DNA of 64,000 nt from Weissella confusa (GTDB lineage: Bacteria > Bacillota > Bacilli > Lactobacillales > Lactobacillaceae), in NCBI GenBank assembly GCA_016466735.1, contig JAAOED010000011.1, positions 1-64,000 of the forward strand, read 5' to 3'. How positions within the stretch are numbered: position 1 is the stretch's first letter; each line of letters begins with the position of its first letter. The notes below the pieces were generated by a model. The model did no database searches and was not told the DNA's origin. It saw only the letters and a program-made list of their open reading frames with translations. Below, piece by piece: positions 5,560 through 39,336 of the stretch. Position numbers and translations under genes: made by a program.

Positions 5560-5745
5560 AGTGTTGTCGATAGCGCTCCGCAGCCGACGAATTTTGCTGC
5601 GACAGTCCTTCCGTTGTTCACGTAAGGACCAACATGTTTCACCGCCGTGAAAACACATTTCGGCAACCGCCCCTTTAAATCAACCGCCTTGTCTGCCGAC
5701 TTGGTTGATCACTCATGTTGGTTGCAACCTCTATGTCATATTTAA
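5560..5745 (-). promoter_or_regulatory. Lysine riboswitch (L box) controlling lysP
   Basis: Read on the minus strand, the leader contains the conserved L-box segments in the right order: ATAGAGGTTGC at the 5' side, ATGAGT, AAGGGGCGGTTGCCGAA, TTGGTCC, GGACTGTC, and a closing GCGCTATCG whose CTAT pairs with the first ATAG. About 185 nt, normal for this class. It lies between a strong promoter and an intrinsic terminator ahead of lysP. Confidence 0.9.
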
Positions 5746-21272: not shown

Positions 21273-21609
21273 TGTGTCGCCACTGGCGTGACGAAGCATG
21301 GTGGGTGGTTGGGCTGGTGGTGTTCCGTCCTGCAATATAAGCTGGTGGCGACGGGGTCCCGTTCTCACTAAGCCTCAGCGTGTTCCATCGCCTGTCGGCT
21401 CGAAATCCACTGCTGCTAAGTGATAACTGGTGCCCCTGTCCTCGCTTGGTCACCGGCTAATATCGCAGGAGCTCCACACCACCAGCCCAACCACCCACCA
21501 TGCCAGCAGCCGAGATATTCTATATTTGTTTAGTAGATCATCCACGGTTAACTCTGTAATGGAGAGTTAACCCAGGCATTTGCTTGTGCGCTAGCACAAC
21601 ACCAACGCA
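21273..21609 (-). repeat. Structured intergenic element, copy A (about 0.34 kb)
   Basis: A perfect 27-bp inverted repeat (21296-21322 with 21477-21503) encloses a conserved core, read on the minus strand: GTGGAGCTCCTGC, TATTAGCCGGTG, GTGGATTTCGAGCCGACAGG, CGCCACCAGC, GCAGGACGGAAC. A second perfect hairpin lies at 21545-21571. The right end carries TTGTGCGCTAGCACAA (6-bp stem). Copies B and C are at 35.0 and 47.6 kb. No coding frame of note. It fills the gap between the transporter operon and the ribB promoter. Confidence 0.8.
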
Positions 21610-21652: not shown

Positions 21653-22486
21653 TTAATCTGCGTTCTTCGTGCCAAAGTAGCGCTCAGAAATCTTGTCCAG
21701 TGTGCCGTCCTTCTTGAACTCATTAATCACACCGTTAACCTTTTCACGCAACGTTACATCACCCTTACGGAAACCGATACCATAAGCGTCTTGTCCGTAA
21801 CCAGTCTTGATGACCTTGAACTCGGCTGGATTTGACTCGTGCGCAACGTAATAACGGGCATAATCCGAATCAATCAATACCGCATTCACTCGGCCAACTT
21901 GCAAGTCGTTCAACGCCTTATCAAAAGTGTCATATTGCACGGGTGCTGACCCAAGGAAACTCTTCAACACCTTTGGCTTGTCGTTAAACAACGTTAGTCC
22001 AGCCGAACCAGTTTGCGCAGCTAGCGTCTTACCGGCCATATCCTTAATCGTGTTAATTTGATCACGCTTCATCGTGACCAACACTTGTGAATCGTTGTGA
22101 TACGGTACTGAGAAGGCAACCTTCTTAGCACGGGCTGGTGTAATCGTGTAACCATTCCAAATCATATCAATGTGACCCGTATCAAGTTCAGTTTCCTTCA
22201 TTGACCAGTCAATTGCTTGGAACTTAACCTTTAGTCCCAACTTCTTGAATGTTGCACGTGCCAAATCAACGTCGTACCCAACCAACTTACCTGACTTGTC
22301 ACGGAAGCCCATTGGCACATACGTATCGTCCAAACCAACGACAACAGTTTTGTCAGCCGTCATTTGGCGCCAAGTGTCTTGTGCGTGCGTCGTGCGATAC
22401 CAAACAAATCCAACCAGCAACGCTAACACTGCCAGCACAATTCCGTTACCGATAATCTGTCGGCGCCAGTTAATCTTCTTTTTCAT
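21653..22486 (-). CDS. Amino-acid ABC transporter, substrate-binding protein
   Basis: 277 residues, a family 3 solute-binding protein. An N-terminal hydrophobic segment (residues 12-28) has no lipobox cysteine, so it is probably membrane-anchored by an uncleaved helix. The mature part has VVVGLDDTYVPMGFRDKSG, YDVDLARATFKKLG, and TELDTGHIDMIWNGYTIT, typical of polar amino-acid binders. It is the last of three genes in one operon with permease and ATPase behind a T-box. Histidine is the best guess at substrate from the specifier codon. Confidence 0.88.
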   Translation of the reverse strand: MKKKINWRRQIIGNGIVLAVLALLVGFVWYRTTHAQDTWRQMTADKTVVVGLDDTYVPMGFRDKSGKLVGYDVDLARATFKKLGLKVKFQAIDWSMKETELDTGHIDMIWNGYTITPARAKKVAFSVPYHNDSQVLVTMKRDQINTIKDMAGKTLAAQTGSAGLTLFNDKPKVLKSFLGSAPVQYDTFDKALNDLQVGRVNAVLIDSDYARYYVAHESNPAEFKVIKTGYGQDAYGIGFRKGDVTLREKVNGVINEFKKDGTLDKISERYFGTKNAD

Positions 22487-22498
22487 TGCGACAGCCCC

Positions 22499-23137
22499 CT
22501 ATCGTTCAACATCCGTCCCAAAATCAAAGGTCTTATCAGCCACGGCCTCAGCAAATGGCAAATCGTGGGTAACAATCAATTGCGTCACACCTTGCGCTTG
22601 CAACTGCTTAATCACTGCAATAACACGTTCCGTTGATTCAGCATCCAAACCAGATGTTGGTTCATCATATGCCAAAATACCAGGCTTCATCGCCAATGCA
22701 CGTGCGATGGCAACACGTTGCTTTTGTCCACCAGACAGCTGGAATGGATATTGGTCTGCTTGGGCCGTCAATCCCAAATCCGCTAGCAAGCGGTCTGCAT
22801 TTTCGGCAGCCTCAGCCTTTGACTCATTGTGCACCATTTGTGGCGCCAACATCACATTTTCCTTCACGGTATATTGTGGAAACAAGTTGAAGTCTTGGAA
22901 AATAACCCCAACTTGAGCGCCGGTGCGTTCACCAGTTAAATCAAGCGACTCACCGTTCAGAATCAACTCACCTTGATCTGCGGGTAGTAAACCAGCAACG
23001 ATTCGCAAGAACGTTGTCTTACCAATACCTGAAGGACCAACAATACTCAAAACCTCACCGTCGTTAACTGTAAGATTCATGTTCTTAAAAATCGTGCGCG
23101 TGTCATATGACTTAGCTAAGTTTTTAATTTCTAGCAT
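22499..23137 (-). CDS. Amino-acid ABC transporter, ATP-binding protein
   Basis: 212 residues, GlnQ/HisP-type ATPase, slightly shorter than the usual 240. Walker A is GPSGIGKTTF near residue 34, the Q-loop follows VGVIFQDFNLFPQ, the signature is LSGGQKQRVAIARALA near 134, Walker B ILAYDEPTSGLD and the switch His in VTHDLP. It lies 12 nt from both neighbours in the operon. Confidence 0.93.
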   Translation of the reverse strand: MLEIKNLAKSYDTRTIFKNMNLTVNDGEVLSIVGPSGIGKTTFLRIVAGLLPADQGELILNGESLDLTGERTGAQVGVIFQDFNLFPQYTVKENVMLAPQMVHNESKAEAAENADRLLADLGLTAQADQYPFQLSGGQKQRVAIARALAMKPGILAYDEPTSGLDAESTERVIAVIKQLQAQGVTQLIVTHDLPFAEAVADKTFDFGTDVER

Positions 23138-23149
23138 TCTTCTTACTCC

Positions 23150-23836
23150 TTAACGATAGTAGTTCATATTCGTTTCAATGCGACGTAGCAACACGGTTGC
23201 GACTGCCGTCAAAATCAAATATAGCAAACCGACTAGTAGATATGGTGCCAACGTAACGTCACGTGAAGCCGCAATATTACCAGCACGCATCAAGTCGCCC
23301 AAACCGATAACGTAGACCAAAGACGTATCCTTAACCAGCGTCACCACTTCGTTTCCAACTGATGGCATTACAATCTTAACCACTTGTGGCAAAACAATCT
23401 TGCGCATTGTTTGCCAGCGGGTTAGACCAAGTACTTTTGCGCCATCATATTGTCCTTGCGGAATGCTTTGTAGCCCTCCGCGGAAAATCTCAGCGAAGTA
23501 CGCAGCATAGTTAATAATAAATGTGATGACCGCAGCTTCAAAGCGTGGGAATGTCACAATGTGAGCTAAACTCAATCCATAGTAGACAAACACAATTTGA
23601 AGCAACAATGGCGTGCCACGCATCACCCAGATATAACCATTCGTTACCCAGCGCAACAAGAAAATATCCGATTTCAATGCCAATGCCACCAAAATTCCCA
23701 ACGGCACTGATCCAATTAAAGTTAATGCGAAGACACCGATGGTCATCTTAAGTCCATCCAGCAAACTTGGCATAATTTGCATCATGTAATCCATACCTTG
23801 CACTCCATTTCCTGCAATAAAAAAGTCCTCAAGCAA
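23150..23836 (-). CDS. Amino-acid ABC transporter, permease
   Basis: 228 residues of the HisM/GlnP permease family with about five membrane helices. The EAA loop reads FAEIFRGGLQSIPQGQYDGAKVLGLTRWQTM, a diagnostic pattern, and GTPLLLQIVFVYYGL precedes it. First gene after the T-box terminator. The substrate is inferred only from the leader. Confidence 0.92.
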   Translation of the reverse strand: MLEDFFIAGNGVQGMDYMMQIMPSLLDGLKMTIGVFALTLIGSVPLGILVALALKSDIFLLRWVTNGYIWVMRGTPLLLQIVFVYYGLSLAHIVTFPRFEAAVITFIINYAAYFAEIFRGGLQSIPQGQYDGAKVLGLTRWQTMRKIVLPQVVKIVMPSVGNEVVTLVKDTSLVYVIGLGDLMRAGNIAASRDVTLAPYLLVGLLYLILTAVATVLLRRIETNMNYYR

Positions 23837-24085
23837 CCCAAAAATAGGTTACTTGAGGACGATAAAAATCGTGGTTCCACCTCAATTTTGTTAGTTGTTA
23901 CCAACCAACACTCTAGCCCCTGATTAAACCAGGCGCGCGCCTATAACGAGGCGATCCGGATACATTTTGTGATGTATCGATAATCATGGGTGTGGTTCAT
24001 CTAGGCCGATGGTTGCTTCCCAGCTTCTGCGCAACTCTCTTAGCACCGACGTTAGACTACTCGTCCAATCAAATCTTTATGGGAT
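23821..24085 (-). promoter_or_regulatory. T-box leader (histidine specifier likely)
   Basis: Read on the minus strand: Stem I with GAGTAGT, AGAGAG and the paired GTTGC/GCAAC distal stem, then TAGATGAACCACACC carrying the specifier loop, the T-box core AGGTGGAACCACG (near 23873) and a terminator (23824-23833 with 23851-23860, then T-run). By the usual GAAC-NNN register the specifier is CAC (His, 23994-23992); CCA (Pro) and ACC/ACA (Thr) are the alternatives by shifted register. The UGGA bulge would pair with U73, not the C73 usual for tRNA-His, so specificity is not settled. Confidence 0.85.
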
Positions 24086-31687: not shown

Positions 31688-31692
31688 TGCTA

Positions 31693-31731
31693 AAAAGGTC
31701 TATACCACACAACAGTTGGTATAGACCTTTT
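31693..31731 (-). terminator. Terminator of degV
   Basis: A 15-bp perfect inverted repeat (31693-31707 with 31717-31731) starting 2 nt past the degV stop, with T-rich tail. Each arm contains a near-palindromic GGTATAGACC, resembling NagR operator sequences, directly upstream of the PTS promoter. Confidence 0.85.
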
Positions 31732-31733
31732 AA

Positions 31734-32606
31734 TTAATTTTCTAATGTTTTATAGTCTTGGGCCCAGATGAGTCCCATTGCTTTTTCACCAGTGTGAACC
31801 CCGATGTAAGGTCCAATGATACTACGCTCAACAACAACATCCGGGAACTGTGCCGTCAAATCAGCTGCCCATTGATCAGCTAAATCAGGGTTGTTACCAT
31901 CTACAATCGTGGCACGAATCTTGTAATCCACACTGTCATGGACTTCCTTAAAGTCAGCCTCAATCTTCTTCCAGGCACGCTTCATCGCACGCTCCTTACC
32001 AATAGCAATAATCTTCGTATCTTCAAAGGTTAGCAATGGTTTGATGTTCAGCAACGATCCCAATGTTGCTTGACCACCAGAAATGCGACCAGTGCGTTGC
32101 AAGTGACGAATTTCATCCACAGCGAACAACACCTTCGTTGTCGCGCGTAGTTGTTCCAAACTCGCTAGAATTTCCGACACATTCTTATCAGCCTTCACCA
32201 TATCGGCCGCCAACTTAGCTTGGTTTCCCGCACCGCTAGCTGCAATTTGTGAATCCCACACGTGAACCTTAATGTTATCTACCGTTCCAGCCAATGATTC
32301 AAGTGACGAGAAGGCACCTGAAATACCTGATGACAATACGATAACAATGACATCCGTATAGCCCGCTTCTGCCAATTCATCAAACTTATCCATGAACGCA
32401 CCAATTTCTGGTTGAGACGTTGTCAAAGCCGGATCCGCCGTACGTTGAAATGTGTAAAAGTCCTCTTGAGATGCCCAACTCTCATTTTCATGAAAAACTT
32501 GCTCACCCATCATAATAGGGTCATTGATTTGATAGATGTTCAACGCTGCCAAATCAGCTGGCGCAATATAACTAGAACTATCAACTAAAACTGCAATCTT
32601 ACTCAT
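31734..32606 (-). CDS. DegV-family fatty-acid-binding protein
   Basis: 290 residues. The EDD fold motifs are AVLVDSSSYI at the N-terminus, TSQPEIGAFMDKF, VIVLSSGISGAFSSL near 90 and RTGRISGGQATLGSLLNIKP near 165. Family members bind fatty acids (FakB role, presenting them to a kinase FakA for phosphorylation). The start is the ATG at 32606 with GGAG 9 nt upstream. Confidence 0.9.
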   Translation of the reverse strand: MSKIAVLVDSSSYIAPADLAALNIYQINDPIMMGEQVFHENESWASQEDFYTFQRTADPALTTSQPEIGAFMDKFDELAEAGYTDVIVIVLSSGISGAFSSLESLAGTVDNIKVHVWDSQIAASGAGNQAKLAADMVKADKNVSEILASLEQLRATTKVLFAVDEIRHLQRTGRISGGQATLGSLLNIKPLLTFEDTKIIAIGKERAMKRAWKKIEADFKEVHDSVDYKIRATIVDGNNPDLADQWAADLTAQFPDVVVERSIIGPYIGVHTGEKAMGLIWAQDYKTLEN

Positions 32607-35020: not shown

Positions 35021-35365
35021 AGTGTCGTCGCTTGCGCGCCGAGGCATGGTGGGTGGTTGGGCTGGCAGTTGCCCCTATCTATTGAACCGTGGATGTAAAT
35101 CCAAGATAGACAAGAACCACTTGGCTGCTATCGTTTTCGGGTTTCGTGGGGTGATGTGGAGCTCCTGCTGTATTAGCCGGTGTTCAAAGCGAAGGAAGGG
35201 AGACTAAAGATTTCTTAGTCAGGGTGGATTTCAAGCCGACAGGCGCCGAAACACGCCAGTACTTAGAAAGATTAGGCTCCCTTCGCCACCAGCTAATTCA
35301 GCAGGACGGAACAGCACCACACGGAACCCGAAAACGATTTGTGCGCTAGCACAACACTAACCCCA
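35021..35365 (+). repeat. Structured intergenic element, copy B (about 0.345 kb)
   Basis: Left end (35021-35064) and right end (TTGTGCGCTAGCACAA) match copy A, but the interior lies in the opposite orientation. The core (35154-35314) is homologous to copy A's minus strand: GTGGAGCTCCTGC, TATTAGCCGGTG, GTGGATTTCAAGCCGACAGG, ACACGCC, CGCCACCAGC, GCAGGACGGAAC. Its outer stem (35130-35153 with 35315-35338, 24 bp with one G-U and one mismatch) is different in sequence from that of copy A yet still pairs. Confidence 0.8.
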
Positions 35366-35407: not shown

Positions 35408-36178
35408 TTAATAACGGTTAAAGTACCCCAACAAATCTGGGACCGTTAATTGTTGCTTCTCTTCACCTGACACATCCAATGAAATTTGCCCGGCTGACAT
35501 GATAATCAAACGATTACCGTATTGAATCGCATCTTCCAAATGGTGCGTAATCATCAAGGCCGTCAAATGATCCTCACGAATGCGTTGGTCAGTCACGGCC
35601 ATCAATTGCTCACTCGTCTTTGGGTCCAACGCCGCTGTGTGCTCATCGAGCAACAACAATTCCGGACGCAAACGCGTGGCCATTAAAAACGATAGCGCTT
35701 GACGTTGTCCACCTGACAAATCACCCGTGGCAACGTTTAGACGTGAATCCAAACCATTTCCCATCGTCGCAGCAACCTTGGCAAAGTCAGCCAACTTTTC
35801 CTTGGTCAAGCCGCGCCCCTTCAAACGACGTGACAACCCGCGACGTTCCGCAAACAACAAGTTCTCTGCCACCGTCATGCGAGGTGCCGTACCCAACTTA
35901 GGGTCTTGGAACACACGTGCCAAAAACTTCGTGCGCTGCGTTTCAGACAACCGCGTGACATCCTCATCACCTAGGTAAATGTGCCCGCCCGTCAATGCAA
36001 GTGAGCCAGCAATAACATTGAACAACGTAGATTTACCAGCACCGTTTGATCCCAGCACCGTAACAAAATCACCTTCGTTCAACGTCAATGAAACATCATT
36101 CAAAATTGTTTTTTCTTCAGGTGTGCCTTGGTTAACCACCACCGTGGCATTTTCTAATCGTAAACTTGTCTTAGTCAT
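35408..36178 (-). CDS. trpZ: ABC transporter ATP-binding protein, TrpZ-type
   Basis: 256 residues. Walker A VLGSNGAGKSTLFN near 42, Q-loop in ARVFQDPKLGTAP, signature GDLSGGQRQALSFLMA, Walker B LLLLDEHTAALDPK and switch His in MITHHLEDA. This is the ATPase of the PF04392-associated transporter class. It overlaps the permease by 8 nt (ATGACTAA). The Trp leader peptide upstream of the operon predicts tryptophan as substrate. Confidence 0.88.
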   Translation of the reverse strand: MTKTSLRLENATVVVNQGTPEEKTILNDVSLTLNEGDFVTVLGSNGAGKSTLFNVIAGSLALTGGHIYLGDEDVTRLSETQRTKFLARVFQDPKLGTAPRMTVAENLLFAERRGLSRRLKGRGLTKEKLADFAKVAATMGNGLDSRLNVATGDLSGGQRQALSFLMATRLRPELLLLDEHTAALDPKTSEQLMAVTDQRIREDHLTALMITHHLEDAIQYGNRLIIMSAGQISLDVSGEEKQQLTVPDLLGYFNRY

Positions 36179-37073
36179 GTGAGGCAACCCCCTTCTTCAA
36201 AACGCTATCTAGTTTCAACACCTTGCGAAGTTGTGGCAACGTCAAAGCAATACCAAGGACAACAGCGCTAAACAAGTTCAAATCGTTGGCGTTGAAGCCC
36301 AGGTAAAGCACGATAACCAACACGAAACGGTAAAGCACAGAACCAATGACAATCGTCACCAAACGGTCCGTCAAAGACATTTGATCCGTAAATACAACCT
36401 CACCAATGATAATTGACGCCAAGGCGACGACGATGATACCAATTCCCATGTTAACGTCCGCAAAGCCGTTGTTTTGCGCGACCAGTGCACCACCCAAGCC
36501 AATCAAACCGTTAGAAATCATCAACCCCATAATCGTCATGTTATCTGTGTTAACACCGAGTGAACGTGCCATCGCACGGTTATCACCGGTTACAATAAAT
36601 GCTTGACCAAGTTCTGTTTGCAAGAAAATGGCCGTCGCTGCCGTCACCACAATAATAATCACCAAACCAACAACCACTGTTGGGAAGTTCTTAGGCAAGA
36701 AATCAAGAAAGTCGGCAGAAAATAGCGTTCCCTTACCAAGCAAAGAGCGGTTGGCTTGTCCCATGATGCGTAGGTTGATTGAGTAAACCGCCGTCATTGT
36801 CAAAATTCCAGCCAACAAAATTGGCACCTTACCCTTGGTGTAAATTAAGCCAGTAACTAAACCAGCTAATGCACCAGCGCCAGCCGCAATTAAACTAGCC
36901 AGAGCCGGGTTCATACCATTTGAAATCAAGGTAACCGCCGTGGCGGCCCCTAGTGGAAAGGTCCCTTCAACCGTCATATCTGGAAAATCCAAGATACGGA
37001 AAGTTAAAAACAATCCAATTCCAAGGGTAGCCCACAAAAGTCCCTGTCCAATCGCTGAAACTAAAATATTCAT
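36171..37073 (-). CDS. trpY: ABC transporter permease, TrpY-type
   Basis: 300 residues with eight to nine membrane helices, of the branched-chain-like permease class (LFLTFRILDFPDMTVEGTFPLGAA near residue 21 and GDNRAMARSLGVNTDNMTIMGL near 182). It lies between the substrate-binding protein (10-nt gap) and the ATPase (8-nt overlap). Substrate inferred from the leader. Confidence 0.88.
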   Translation of the reverse strand: MNILVSAIGQGLLWATLGIGLFLTFRILDFPDMTVEGTFPLGAATAVTLISNGMNPALASLIAAGAGALAGLVTGLIYTKGKVPILLAGILTMTAVYSINLRIMGQANRSLLGKGTLFSADFLDFLPKNFPTVVVGLVIIIVVTAATAIFLQTELGQAFIVTGDNRAMARSLGVNTDNMTIMGLMISNGLIGLGGALVAQNNGFADVNMGIGIIVVALASIIIGEVVFTDQMSLTDRLVTIVIGSVLYRFVLVIVLYLGFNANDLNLFSAVVLGIALTLPQLRKVLKLDSVLKKGVASHD

Positions 37074-37083
37074 ACCGTTCTCC

Positions 37084-38070
37084 TTACTTCACGAACTTCG
37101 CGTTATCGTAGCCCTTGGGCATCGTCAAACCTAACTTCTCAAGTTGCGCCTTGTTTACCACCAACTCACCAGTCTTGGTAAAGTCAACTGGCAATGCCTT
37201 AGGGTTGGCACCCTTCAAGATTTTTGCAACCATCTTACCGGTCATCACCCCGATGTTTTTCTGGTTGATTGACTCAGCGGCCACACCACCGTCTTTAACC
37301 ATCGTATCGACCGTTGGGAACACGGGCACCTTAGCGGCATCCGTGTTCTTAATCAATGTTGTCATTGCCCCAGCAATCGTGTTATCCGTCGGCACAAAGA
37401 CCGCATCAACGTTATGATTTTCAACCATTTGTAGTGACGTTTGATTCAAATCGTTTGATGATGCGATTGAGTACGCCTTCACCTTTAGTCCCGCCTTCTC
37501 AGCCAGCGCAATCATCTTGCGGGCTTCAGTCGTGGCTGAATCATCTGATGATGTGTAGATAACGCCCAGCGTCTTCATGTCCGGCAAAAATGCTTTCATC
37601 ATCTTCAATTGGGCCTCAAGTGGCGCCTGATCAGAAACACCCGTGACATTGCCTCCTGGCTTCTCGTAGCTCTTGACCAACTTGGCACTCATTGGGTTCG
37701 TTGAAGCCGAAAACACAACCGGCTTATCATTAATTGTATTGGCCAATGCAACGGCTGCCGGTGTCGCAATTCCAACTGAGACAGCAGCACCTTCGTTCTC
37801 AAACTTTGTTGACATTGTCTTCAAGTTAGATTGATCACCTTGCGCATTTTGGAAATCAATTTTGACATCCTTGCCCACTGTGTAACCACTATCCGCCAAG
37901 CCTTCCTTGATACCCTTATTAATCGCATCCAATGCTGGGTGTGACATAAATTGCAAAACGCCCACTGTTGGGATCTTAGCTGCTTTATGTTCCGCGATTG
38001 ATTCTTGGACCCCTGCTGCAACAAGCACTGCAGCTAATAAGCCAACAGCAGTCAATACTTTCTTGTTCAT
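37084..38070 (-). CDS. trpX: ABC transporter substrate-binding protein, TrpX-type
   Basis: 328 residues, PF04392-type binding protein. An N-terminal signal/anchor (MNKKVLTAVGLLAAVLVAAGV) has no lipobox cysteine. Then IPTVGVLQFMSHPALDAINKGIKEGL, GIATPAAVALANTI and FVPTDNTIAGAMTTL, the family hallmarks. The start at 38070 has GGGGTGAAGG immediately upstream; the open frame extends 46 codons into the leader terminator, which is not credible. First gene of trpXYZ, behind a Trp leader. Confidence 0.9.
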   Translation of the reverse strand: MNKKVLTAVGLLAAVLVAAGVQESIAEHKAAKIPTVGVLQFMSHPALDAINKGIKEGLADSGYTVGKDVKIDFQNAQGDQSNLKTMSTKFENEGAAVSVGIATPAAVALANTINDKPVVFSASTNPMSAKLVKSYEKPGGNVTGVSDQAPLEAQLKMMKAFLPDMKTLGVIYTSSDDSATTEARKMIALAEKAGLKVKAYSIASSNDLNQTSLQMVENHNVDAVFVPTDNTIAGAMTTLIKNTDAAKVPVFPTVDTMVKDGGVAAESINQKNIGVMTGKMVAKILKGANPKALPVDFTKTGELVVNKAQLEKLGLTMPKGYDNAKFVK

Positions 38071-38103
38071 AACCTTCACCCCGTAAATAATTGCAAAATA
38101 AAA

Positions 38104-38138
38104 CCGCGAAAGAGTCACCTTGCGTGCCCCTTTCGCGG
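38104..38138 (-). terminator. Attenuator terminator of the trpXYZ leader
   Basis: Stem 38104-38112 with 38130-38138 (CCGCGAAAG type) followed by a T-rich tail on the minus strand, about 30 nt before the trpX start. Its 5' arm GCGAAAGG is complementary to CCTTTC of the preceding hairpin, so the two can compete. Confidence 0.8.
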
Positions 38139-38144
38139 TAAAAA

Positions 38145-38202
38145 GAAAGGCCTGCGCGGTAACCCGTGCAGACCTTTCGTTAACGGAAATCAGTCGGCAC
38201 AG
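38145..38202 (-). promoter_or_regulatory. Competing stems of the trpXYZ attenuator
   Basis: A strong hairpin (38145-38178; GAAAGG...CCTTTC with CTGC/GCAG inside) precedes the terminator. Upstream, CTGTGCC (38202-38196) can pair with GGCGCAG (38275-38269), which overlaps the second Trp codon and stop-proximal codons of the leader peptide. Confidence 0.6.
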
Positions 38203-38264
38203 ACTCAATACTTACGCTCCAAAAGAGCACGTACCGAATCTGCTTCAACCACAGTTCGGACGCG

Positions 38265-38309
38265 TTAGCTGCGCCACCAACCATTCAATTGTACTGTCGT
38301 CTTAAACAT
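38265..38309 (-). CDS. Tryptophan leader peptide MFKTTVQLNGWWRS
   Basis: A 14-codon reading frame with two adjacent Trp codons (38279-38274), starting 8 nt after a GGTGG ribosome-binding site and about 29 nt from the predicted transcription start. It is followed by mutually exclusive stems and an intrinsic terminator ahead of trpXYZ. This is the layout of ribosome-mediated attenuation: stalling at Trp codons when charged tRNA-Trp is scarce should disrupt the GGCGCAG/CTGTGCC stem and favour read-through. There is no T-box core in this leader. Confidence 0.8.
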   Translation of the reverse strand: MFKTTVQLNGWWRS

Positions 38310-38343
38310 AACTGTTTCCACCTAACGTTTCATCTTGAAAATT

Positions 38344-38372
38344 ATGATAACATTTTATTTTTTGTAATGCAA
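38344..38372 (-). promoter_or_regulatory. Promoter of the trp leader and trpXYZ
   Basis: TTGCAT (38372-38367), 17-nt spacer, TATCAT (38349-38344). It lies directly after the nrdF stop codon; predicted start near 38337. Confidence 0.75.
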
Positions 38373-38373
38373 C

Positions 38374-39336
38374 CTAATCCAAGCCGATGTTGTAGTCATC
38401 GTCTTCCATTACTTCGACTTGACCCAAACGGTAACCGTTTCCGACTTGTGAGAAGAAGTCGTGGTTAGACGTTGTCGTTGAAATACCATTCATCACAATT
38501 GGATTAACATCTTCTGCCCCATCAGGGAACAGTGGATCCTGACCTAGATTCATCAATGCCTTGTTTGCATTGTAACGCAAGAATGTAAGCACTGATTCTG
38601 TCCAACCGATTTCATCGTATAGATGCTTCGTGTAGTTTTCTTCGTTGTTGTACAAATCCAACAACAAGTCGTACATCCACATCTTCATTTCTTCTTGCTT
38701 GTCTTCAGGCAACTCATTGAAGCCTAATTGGAACTTGTAACCAATGTAAGTTCCGTGAACGGATTCATCACGCAAAATCAACTTAATGATTTCAGCAACG
38801 TTGTTCAACTTGTTGTGGCCTAGGTACCAAAGTGGCGTGTAGAACCCTGAGTAGAACAAGAACGTTTCCAAGAATACAGACGCTACCTTCTTTTGCAGGT
38901 CATCCCCAGTTTGATAAATTTGGTTAATGCGTTGTGCCTTGTATTGCAAGTATTCATTCGTATTTGTCCAATCGAAAATCTCTTCAATTTCCGCTGGGGT
39001 GTTCAACGTTTCAAAAATTGATGAGTATGACTTCGCGTGAACGGATTCCATAAACTCAATATTGTTCAGTACTGCTTCTTCGTGTTGCGTACGAACCGAC
39101 TTCTTCAATGACGCCATACCATCTTGTGATTGGAGCGTATCAAGCAGGGTCAAACCACCAAATACGTGCCCCACCAAGTAGTGTTCGTTTTCCGCCATCT
39201 TACGCCAGTCATCCAAGTCATTTGACAACGGAATACGCGTGTCTAGCCAAAATTGTTCAGTCAACTTTTCCCAAGTCGCCTTGTCGATTGCGTCCTCAAC
39301 GTTATTCCAGTTGATTGCAACATATCCTTCAGTCAT
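38374..39336 (-). CDS. nrdF: Class Ib ribonucleotide reductase beta subunit
   Basis: 320 residues, carrying the dimetal/tyrosyl radical cofactor (dimanganese in vivo for NrdF, assembled with NrdI). Ligand-bearing helices include EFMESVHAKSYSSIFETL near residue 100 and LILRDESVHGTYIGYKFQ near 190. I start it at 39336 (MTEGYVAINWNN), which matches the family N-terminus and has GGAG upstream; the open frame is 13 codons longer. It lies 117 nt downstream of nrdE, with a modest hairpin-forming gap between. Confidence 0.95.
   Translation of the reverse strand: MTEGYVAINWNNVEDAIDKATWEKLTEQFWLDTRIPLSNDLDDWRKMAENEHYLVGHVFGGLTLLDTLQSQDGMASLKKSVRTQHEEAVLNNIEFMESVHAKSYSSIFETLNTPAEIEEIFDWTNTNEYLQYKAQRINQIYQTGDDLQKKVASVFLETFLFYSGFYTPLWYLGHNKLNNVAEIIKLILRDESVHGTYIGYKFQLGFNELPEDKQEEMKMWMYDLLLDLYNNEENYTKHLYDEIGWTESVLTFLRYNANKALMNLGQDPLFPDGAEDVNPIVMNGISTTTSNHDFFSQVGNGYRLGQVEVMEDDDYNIGLD

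Follow-up and report, generated by a model that had tools for sequence, protein, structure and literature searches.

As read from its sequence, the RNA that precedes the tryptophan transporter operon trpXYZ of Weissella confusa has the anatomy of a leader-peptide attenuator, with a short open reading frame that has its own start codon and Shine-Dalgarno sequence, Trp codons placed before trpX, and helices that exclude one another. We put the probability that this is a ribosome-mediated transcription attenuator, reporting charged tRNA-Trp to the operon, at about 0.87. The reading is supported by the conservation of the leader, by the covariation of its helices and by the exchange of leader codons among related RNAs. 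Charged tRNA-Trp would be the signal, and we infer ribosome stalling, an order of folding, a default state and read-through.

The locus lies on the minus strand of the window, by which we mean the whole stretch of 64,000 nucleotides that was analyzed. The gene nrdF (38374–39336) is followed on the same strand by the leader region and three transporter genes. The gene next to the leader (37084–38070, with its ATG at 38070) encodes a tryptophan ABC transporter substrate-binding protein (NCBIfam NF041285, Pfam PF04392). In a profile search it scores 437 bits against the TrpX equivalog model NF041285, where the curated cut-off is 390, so that the name trpX given to it in an earlier, sequence-only reading of this DNA was the right one; the TrpX proteins of two W. 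confusa records are 97–98% identical to that encoded here. The permease in the trpY position (36171–37073) belongs to Pfam PF02653, with no NCBIfam model above its cut-off, and the ATPase in the trpZ position (35408–36178) to Pfam PF00005. A predicted promoter occupies 38344–38372, comprising a −35 element TTGCAT (38372–38367), a 17-nt spacer and an extended −10 element TGTTATCAT (38352–38344), and the transcript is expected to start near 38337. The TGNTA of the extended −10 is kept in 24 of 26 aligned Weissella rows as counted by eye, and the promoter as a whole is a 9/12 match to the consensus, which is equally frequent in shuffled sequence (1 site in a simple scan vs 1.1 by chance). The leader peptide has the Shine-Dalgarno sequence AGGTGG (38318–38323), assigned from the sequence and the upstream letters of relatives, and its frame, MFKTTVQLNGWWRS, runs over 14 codons from ATG at 38309 to TAA at 38267–38265 (38265–38309). 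Promoter, ribosome-binding site and frame can all be read directly on the minus strand, placed as they were in the sequence-only reading. The two adjacent Trp codons, the proposed stall site, fall at 38274–38279. A simple scan for terminators reported none on the minus strand; the leader RNA has a folding energy of −103.1 kcal/mol, compared with −71.1 (sd 4.4) for shuffles, giving z = −7.3.

We number the pairing segments of the leader in their order of transcription. Segment 1, GGCGCAG (38269–38275), comprises parts of the second Trp codon and of the Arg and Ser codons, and swap tests described below assign it to segment 4. Segment 2, CGCGTCCGAACTG (38252–38264), begins directly after the stop codon and is assigned to segment 3 by covariation and swap test. 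Segment 3, GCAGATTCGGTACGTG (38228–38243), can pair with either 2 or 4 (covariation), while segment 4, GTATTGAGTCTGTGCC (38196–38211), can pair with 3, 1 or 5 (covariation for 3:4, swap test for 4:5). Segment 5, GAAAGGTCTGCACGG (38164–38178), is the 5′ arm of terminator 1 and the candidate antiterminator partner of segment 4; segment 6, CCGCGCAGGCCTTTC with its T5 run (38140–38159), is the 3′ arm, as seen in the sequence and in the covariation of 5:6. The hairpin of terminator 1 spans 38178–38145 and is followed by the T5. A second terminator-like hairpin (38139–38103; 38095–38139 with its tail) is seen in the sequence, formed by segments 7 and 8 as ACCGCGAAAG...CTTTCGCGGT and followed by TTTTATTTT. 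The sequence-only reading had proposed a stem of GGCGCAG with CTGTGCC, and these segments (38275–38269 and 38202–38196) are indeed complementary; we refine the stem to a long-range helix, 1:4. It had also proposed a hairpin and a terminator whose arms exchange partners. Exchange between exclusive helices stands, and these covary, but the parts are more numerous than it had counted, and include the second terminator.

The leader is well conserved within the genus. TrpX is matched in all 28 Weissella genomes, and in 26 of these a leader ending WWR-x-stop precedes trpX, its last four residues being W-W-R-[SRFI]. The sequence-only reading had staked itself on conservation of the Trp codons in relatives, and the adjacent pair is present in 26/26 aligned Weissella leaders. 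One Weissella locus, L027 (genome G020), contains no WWR-x-stop frame within 700 bases upstream of trpX, despite having a hairpin that resembles terminator 1 directly before the gene; genome G008, whose TrpX match is broken into five fragments, was left out of the assessment. Two Weissella genomes have a second TrpX-like copy (L050 and L051) whose own leader, read by eye, ends AWQSRH[TL]RS.

The helices were examined on an alignment of 23 distinct Weissella sequences (A1), with 500 shuffles for comparison; the two Trp codons form its invariant columns 1–6. In helix 2:3, 90.8% of cells are paired, falling to no more than 53% when the helix is slid. Compensatory changes occur at five of its eight pairs (shuffle mean 3.0, with 6/500 shuffles reaching five) and in 20 cells, compared with 5.9 in shuffles, none of the 500 being as high. 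Helices 3:4 and 5:6 taken together are paired in 95.5% of cells, with 18 of 27 pairs compensatory (9/13 in 3:4 and 9/14 in 5:6), where the shuffle mean is 10.1 and 0/500 are as high. Since 2:3 and 3:4 share bases, two exclusive structures are kept, and the compensatory stem changes that the sequence-only reading proposed to look for are found in both. Helices 1:4 and 4:5 are weakly supported by A1 alone. Helix 1:4 is paired in 82.6% of cells vs 81.3% in shuffles (11/500 as high), with 2/8 pairs compensatory (69/500 as high), and several WRF/WRI species lack some of its pairs; helix 4:5 is paired in 84.1% vs 81.2%, with 2/6 compensatory (167/500 as high), and its register, read by eye, shifts in some species.

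How far does this leader extend beyond Weissella? An Rfam search matches the locus to RF04312, the trpB motif, with 21.8 bits and E = 0.98 where the gathering cut-off is 59, and we therefore file it as a distant relative of that family and not, by score, as a member; six other weak Rfam matches at the locus are to unrelated families. The trpB motif (SRC-39-1) entered the literature in 2024 as a strong riboswitch candidate; its authors count over 900 examples among Firmicutes and Fusobacteria, mostly before an uncharacterized ABC transporter (PMC11109978). The RNA half of the leader is thus less novel than the sequence-only reading had supposed, segments 3 to 6 being distantly related to a published motif. 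In the open-access papers searched 'trpb motif' occurs in one, trpX occurs together with Weissella in none, and none joins 'trp leader peptide' with Firmicutes, tryptophan and attenuation. The similarity is one of architecture: segments 3 to 6 of RF04312 are likewise a hairpin, an antiterminator in the right shoulder of that hairpin, and a terminator, and the motif precedes genes for amino-acid transporters and trpB, as our element precedes a transporter. Its 107-position model differs in stopping short of the leader frame and of segments 1 and 2.

Because the leader frame lies outside the Rfam model, its presence at RF04312 loci is independent evidence. Matches at E ≤ 0.001 occur in 159 of 295 Lactobacillales genomes, 52 of them above the cut-off, and we read 70 of these, 30 matches and 40 more picked lower down the list, to E = 8e-6. 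An ATG with a Shine-Dalgarno sequence and a frame that has Trp among its last nine residues and ends near the motif is found at 68 of the 70, with 0.60 expected from shuffles. Two Trp codons within four positions are present in 53/70, vs 0.03 expected, and a single Trp codon in 16/70; the commonest ending is WQNWRR. The pattern W-Q-x-W-x-R-stop occurs in 50/295 genomes and in 3/295 in the reversed control, not all of these being leaders; its occurrence in the window's own genome is elsewhere than the trpX leader. In the opposite direction, a model built from Weissella alone (R1) detects 36 of the 70 RF04312 loci at E ≤ 0.01. Of 49 matches counted, 42 place the first Trp codon of the model no more than 3 nt away from a Trp codon of the leader. 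The sole strong R1 match in the window's own genome is the trpX leader of the window. A further R1 match at 31692–31836 of the window was rejected as a false positive, since what aligns there is the terminator downstream of a gene, unrelated to the leader; part of the R1 score is therefore plain terminator. From these reciprocal matches a hairpin-terminator architecture appears to be common to the Weissella element and RF04312. The arrangement is also seen in other Lactobacillaceae. Among 40 trpX loci from 15 genera, chosen among the matches listed, 34 (or 37 under a less strict rule) have a leader with ATG and Shine-Dalgarno sequence in which Trp stands close to the end, ending mostly WQSR, WQSQ or WWRR, and six have an RF04312 match at E ≤ 0.01.

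These three groups of loci allow an alignment-free swap test, in which the pairing of a segment with its own partner is compared with its pairing to partners from other species. The distinct loci number 18 from Weissella, 53 of RF04312 and 35 from other Lactobacillaceae, or 17, 53 and 23, respectively, for 4:5, 6:7 and 1:7. The p values that follow are given in this order, and should be read as removing relatedness only in part and as coming from loci chosen by score and genus, not randomly: for 2:3, p = 3.8e-6 (18/18 Weissella loci), 4.5e-6 and 4e-9; for 1:4, p = 0.029 (12/18 better), 6.9e-4 and 2.4e-4; for 3:4, p = 1.6e-4, 4.5e-5 and a marginal 0.055; and for 4:5, p = 4.2e-4 (16/17), 1.7e-4 and 5.3e-5. 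Two negative controls give no signal, 1:2 with p = 0.51, 0.10 and 0.26, and 1:7 with p = 0.72 and 0.83 at the RF04312 and other loci. The comparative evidence thus points to mutually exclusive helices that end in either a terminator or an antiterminator, of which 2:3, 3:4 and 5:6 covary, and 4:5 more weakly. Helix 1:2 had been a candidate for the default-off structure, and was rejected in favor of 1:4 since it does not covary in any swap test, including that on family f143 described below. For 1:4 as the basis of the default OFF state the case in Weissella itself is modest.

A mechanism can be proposed from these pairings. When Trp-tRNA is scarce the ribosome would wait at the Trp codons and cover segment 1. 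Segment 2 would then be free to form 2:3, so releasing segment 4, and the resulting 4:5 helix would block terminator 1 and let trpXYZ be transcribed. With ample Trp, the ribosome would reach the stop codon and cover segment 2, so that 3:4 and 5:6 form and transcription terminates. With no ribosome on the leader 1:4 would pair, and transcription would also end. At loci with a second terminator, segment 6, once freed, could pair with segment 7 and so disarm both terminators together, and by exchange of its leader codons the same scaffold could serve other amino acids.

We folded 132 loci with a ribosome mask that hides the RNA up to 13 nt from the A-site codon, counted from its first base. While segment 4 is still to be transcribed, 125 loci fold into 2:3 if the ribosome stands at the last Trp codon, and 35 do so if it has moved on to the stop codon, and thus segment 2 lies just where the two ribosome positions differ. 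In the absence of a ribosome 2:3 forms in 117/132, so that a default OFF state requires 1:4. Once segment 4 has been made, 2:3 survives in the minimum-energy fold of 0/26 Weissella, 17/69 RF04312 and 21/37 other loci when the ribosome stands at the last Trp codon, and for the window RNA equilibrium folding favors 3:4 and both terminators at every ribosome position. As equilibrium favors termination and loses 2:3, the switch would have to be kinetic, set by the order and speed of folding. This is the accepted basis of read-through in trp-type attenuators. The fit to the assumed footprint is approximate, since in many loci segment 2 starts at its very edge: the 5′ base of segment 2 lies at least 13 nt from the last Trp codon in 5/26 Weissella, 28/69 RF04312 and 34/37 other loci, and at least 11 nt from it in 25/26, 31/69 and 35/37. 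An initial measure of this geometry placed segment 2 mostly inside the Trp-stalled footprint; it was unreliable because the duplex ends were loose, and was replaced.

The scaffold is also found with other leader codons. Of 398 genomes sampled across the phylum, two have an RF04312 match at E ≤ 1e-4, and one of these (G1002) led us to a Bacillota family, f143, in which 17/88 genomes contain 29 matches of 38.6–57.6 bits, all under the Rfam cut-off. A leader frame with a Shine-Dalgarno sequence is present at 28 of the 29, and the repeated codon is not Trp, being instead Phe (QFFFNSQFR, NNFFFSFFR), Tyr (AYYLSYYR), Leu (LLLLANLR) or His (IHHHH). In 22/29 matches, vs 0.38 in shuffles, at least three copies of one of these residues lie near the end of the leader. 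Behind the four His leaders lie three hisS genes (above the cut-off) and one HisZ-like gene (below it), and the proteins downstream of the other 24 leaders have N-termini unlike these. Six of those 24 were searched. Sodium symporters were identified three times, after Leu, Tyr and Phe leaders, and two Phe leaders precede permeases that share the Pfam family of the trpXYZ permease. The sixth locus, L205, is a poor fit to the codon logic, having a mixed Tyr/Phe leader before a branched-chain carrier. The pairings of f143 resemble those above. In the swap test 27/27 loci pair best with their own partner in 2:3 (p = 7.5e-9), and the leader codons with segment 4 plus the nucleotides that follow it in 18/27 (p = 0.018, 12-nt window). 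With a 24-nt window 1:4 gives 22/28 (p = 3.6e-5), a value that is not independent as the window was widened after viewing the sequences. Examples are AATAGCCAATTTAGA with TCTATGTTGGCTAT in the Phe type and CATCATCATCA with TGGTGATGATG in the His type, and in these two types codons and partner segment appear to have changed together; among the Leu leaders the own 1:4 pairing is better in only 2/5.

Exchangeable leader codons argue against one ligand, and hence against the classification of RF04312 as a strong riboswitch candidate (PMC11109978). On that interpretation the region of the 3:4 hairpin binds a metabolite, and the upstream frame is incidental or only an aid to folding. The conservation of the hairpins is in its favor. 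Yet a leader frame lies directly upstream of 68 of the 70 RF04312 matches where 0.6 would be expected, and the helices that involve the leader covary. Related RNAs carry leader codons for five different amino acids, the Phe, Tyr, Leu and His versions, with His before hisS and a HisZ-like gene, being more than one ligand can explain. In the available text of the paper the authors themselves allow that a classic attenuator remains possible, and 'leader peptide' is absent from it (PMC11109978). We judge a metabolite-binding riboswitch to be very improbable. An arrest peptide of the TnaC kind, which we consider improbable, would be read by a ribosome in a different manner, with free Trp stalling it at the leader stop codon so that it covers segment 2; termination would follow, and the response would have the same sign. 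Single-Trp leaders exist, and the residues before Trp recur: [LIVFSM]N, often LN, is found no more than four residues ahead of the first Trp in 21/21 Weissella, 38/67 RF04312 and 19/36 other distinct leaders, a motif for which the helices do not account. In TnaC itself about 12 residues separate the critical Trp from the end of the stalled peptide. By comparison only two to four residues follow the last Trp in 117 of 132 leaders, the codons after Trp are explained by the 1:4 pairing, and Phe, Leu, Tyr and His versions exist.

A T-box would read the same tRNA directly, and is the known control of trpXYZ in S. suis according to the available text of PMC9382623. The window's own genome contains 20 T-box matches, and within terminator 1 the sequence GGGTTACCGCG recalls that of a T-box, with TGG as a possible specifier, which raised the question of a degenerate element. 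We rejected this. No T-box (RF00230) is matched at 38020–38420 up to E = 10, nor on the trpX strand over about 700 bases at the 40 Lactobacillaceae loci at E ≤ 0.01, and the letters ACCGCG of terminator 1 are not kept in the Weissella alignment. The probability of a degenerate T-box is therefore close to nil. At one locus, L170 (genome G112), a T-box lies on the strand opposite trpX, beside the leader-peptide region, presumably serving a divergent gene. Elsewhere in the window a minus-strand T-box match of 88 bits, just below the cut-off of 93, is found at 23852–24081, and thus T-boxes are used elsewhere in this genome. It sits upstream of an apparent ABC transporter operon, judged from translations to comprise a permease (23150–23836), an ATPase (22499–23137) and a binding protein (21653–22486).

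We return to the ribosome-mediated attenuator and its second terminator. Two or more terminator-like hairpins are present in 13/26 Weissella, 54/69 RF04312 and 21/37 other loci, where in some of the RF04312 loci one of the hairpins counted is that of 3:4. The swap test for 6:7 covers the RF04312 and other loci, the Weissella loci being too few, and favors the own partner in 40/42 (p = 2.3e-9) and 16/18 (p = 5.3e-5), respectively. Compared with shuffled partners, 6:7 falls below z = −1.5 in 38/54 RF04312, 5/13 Weissella and 8/20 other loci. In the window a 6:7 pairing CCTTTC:GAAAGG is possible, but the W. confusa locus L024 is no better than shuffles (z = −0.4), and we therefore suggest coupled terminators for the wider family and not for the window's locus. 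In several RF04312 loci (L094, L098 and L118, for example) the 5′ arm of the second terminator starts GGCAA or GACAA, resembling Trp-Gln codons; the 1:7 pairing that this would imply found no support in the swap test.

Leader-peptide attenuators control the trp and his operons of Proteobacteria, as in trpL and hisL of E. coli. The Weissella leader resembles these in its short frame with codons for the regulated amino acid, its exclusive helices, its intrinsic terminator, and the decision by ribosome position. It differs in that the default OFF state seems to be set by the long-range helix 1:4, between codons of the Trp region and segment 4, in the second terminator found in many relatives, with covariation between its 5′ arm and the 3′ arm of terminator 1, and in that an importer is controlled. 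The sequence-only reading took leader peptides of the E. coli type to be characteristic of Proteobacteria and some Actinobacteria and was aware of no described case in this group. Firmicutes do offer precedents in His leader peptides before hisS/hisZ and his operons (PMC2965389, PMC9413887) and in a Leu leader peptide in S. aureus (PMC5794164), as described in the available text of these papers, with which the present case shares leader-peptide attenuation in Firmicutes while differing in its Trp codons. The same available texts (PMC2965389, PMC9413887, PMC5794164) make no mention of a scaffold in common with the trpB motif. The T-box before trpXYZ in S. suis serves the same transporter and should follow the same logic, with expression turned on by uncharged tRNA-Trp (available text of PMC9382623); there the RNA reads the tRNA, whereas here the ribosome would do so, and no T-box is found at the locus. 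A precedent of the same kind as our reading of the trpB motif is the ilvB-II motif of Corynebacterium, which was found in a search for noncoding RNA and has been assigned to a conserved upstream frame (PMC10272879, in the part available).

Taken with f143, these comparisons make it quite probable that RF04312 and its relatives are one homologous Bacillota attenuator scaffold, often with two serial terminators, in which the leader codons (Trp, Phe, Tyr, Leu or His) set the specificity and change together with segment 4, the leader of Weissella trpXYZ being a divergent Trp version. If true, the scaffold would be the ribosome-read counterpart of the T-box, built as a fixed chain of exchangeable helices, and would give a published riboswitch candidate a mechanism that can be put to the test. 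The data further suggest that in Weissella and other Lactobacillaceae a translating ribosome does the tryptophan sensing for trpXYZ that in S. suis falls to a T-box. The substrate class of the transporters behind RF04312-type leaders also gains support. Since the amino acid can be read from the leader codons, the scaffold might serve, as T-box specifiers do, to predict substrates of amino-acid transporters from sequence.

Two further elements of the window may be recorded. A near-palindromic repeat of 286 nt at 35080–35365 is predicted to fold strongly (z = −8.5) and matches no Rfam family at gathering level. Counting the repeat itself and its reverse arm, there are 24 matches in its own genome; three other copies are nearly full length at 84–86% identity, and a partial copy lies on the minus strand at 21315–21483. 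A lysine riboswitch is found on the minus strand at 5563–5741, with a score of 95 bits.
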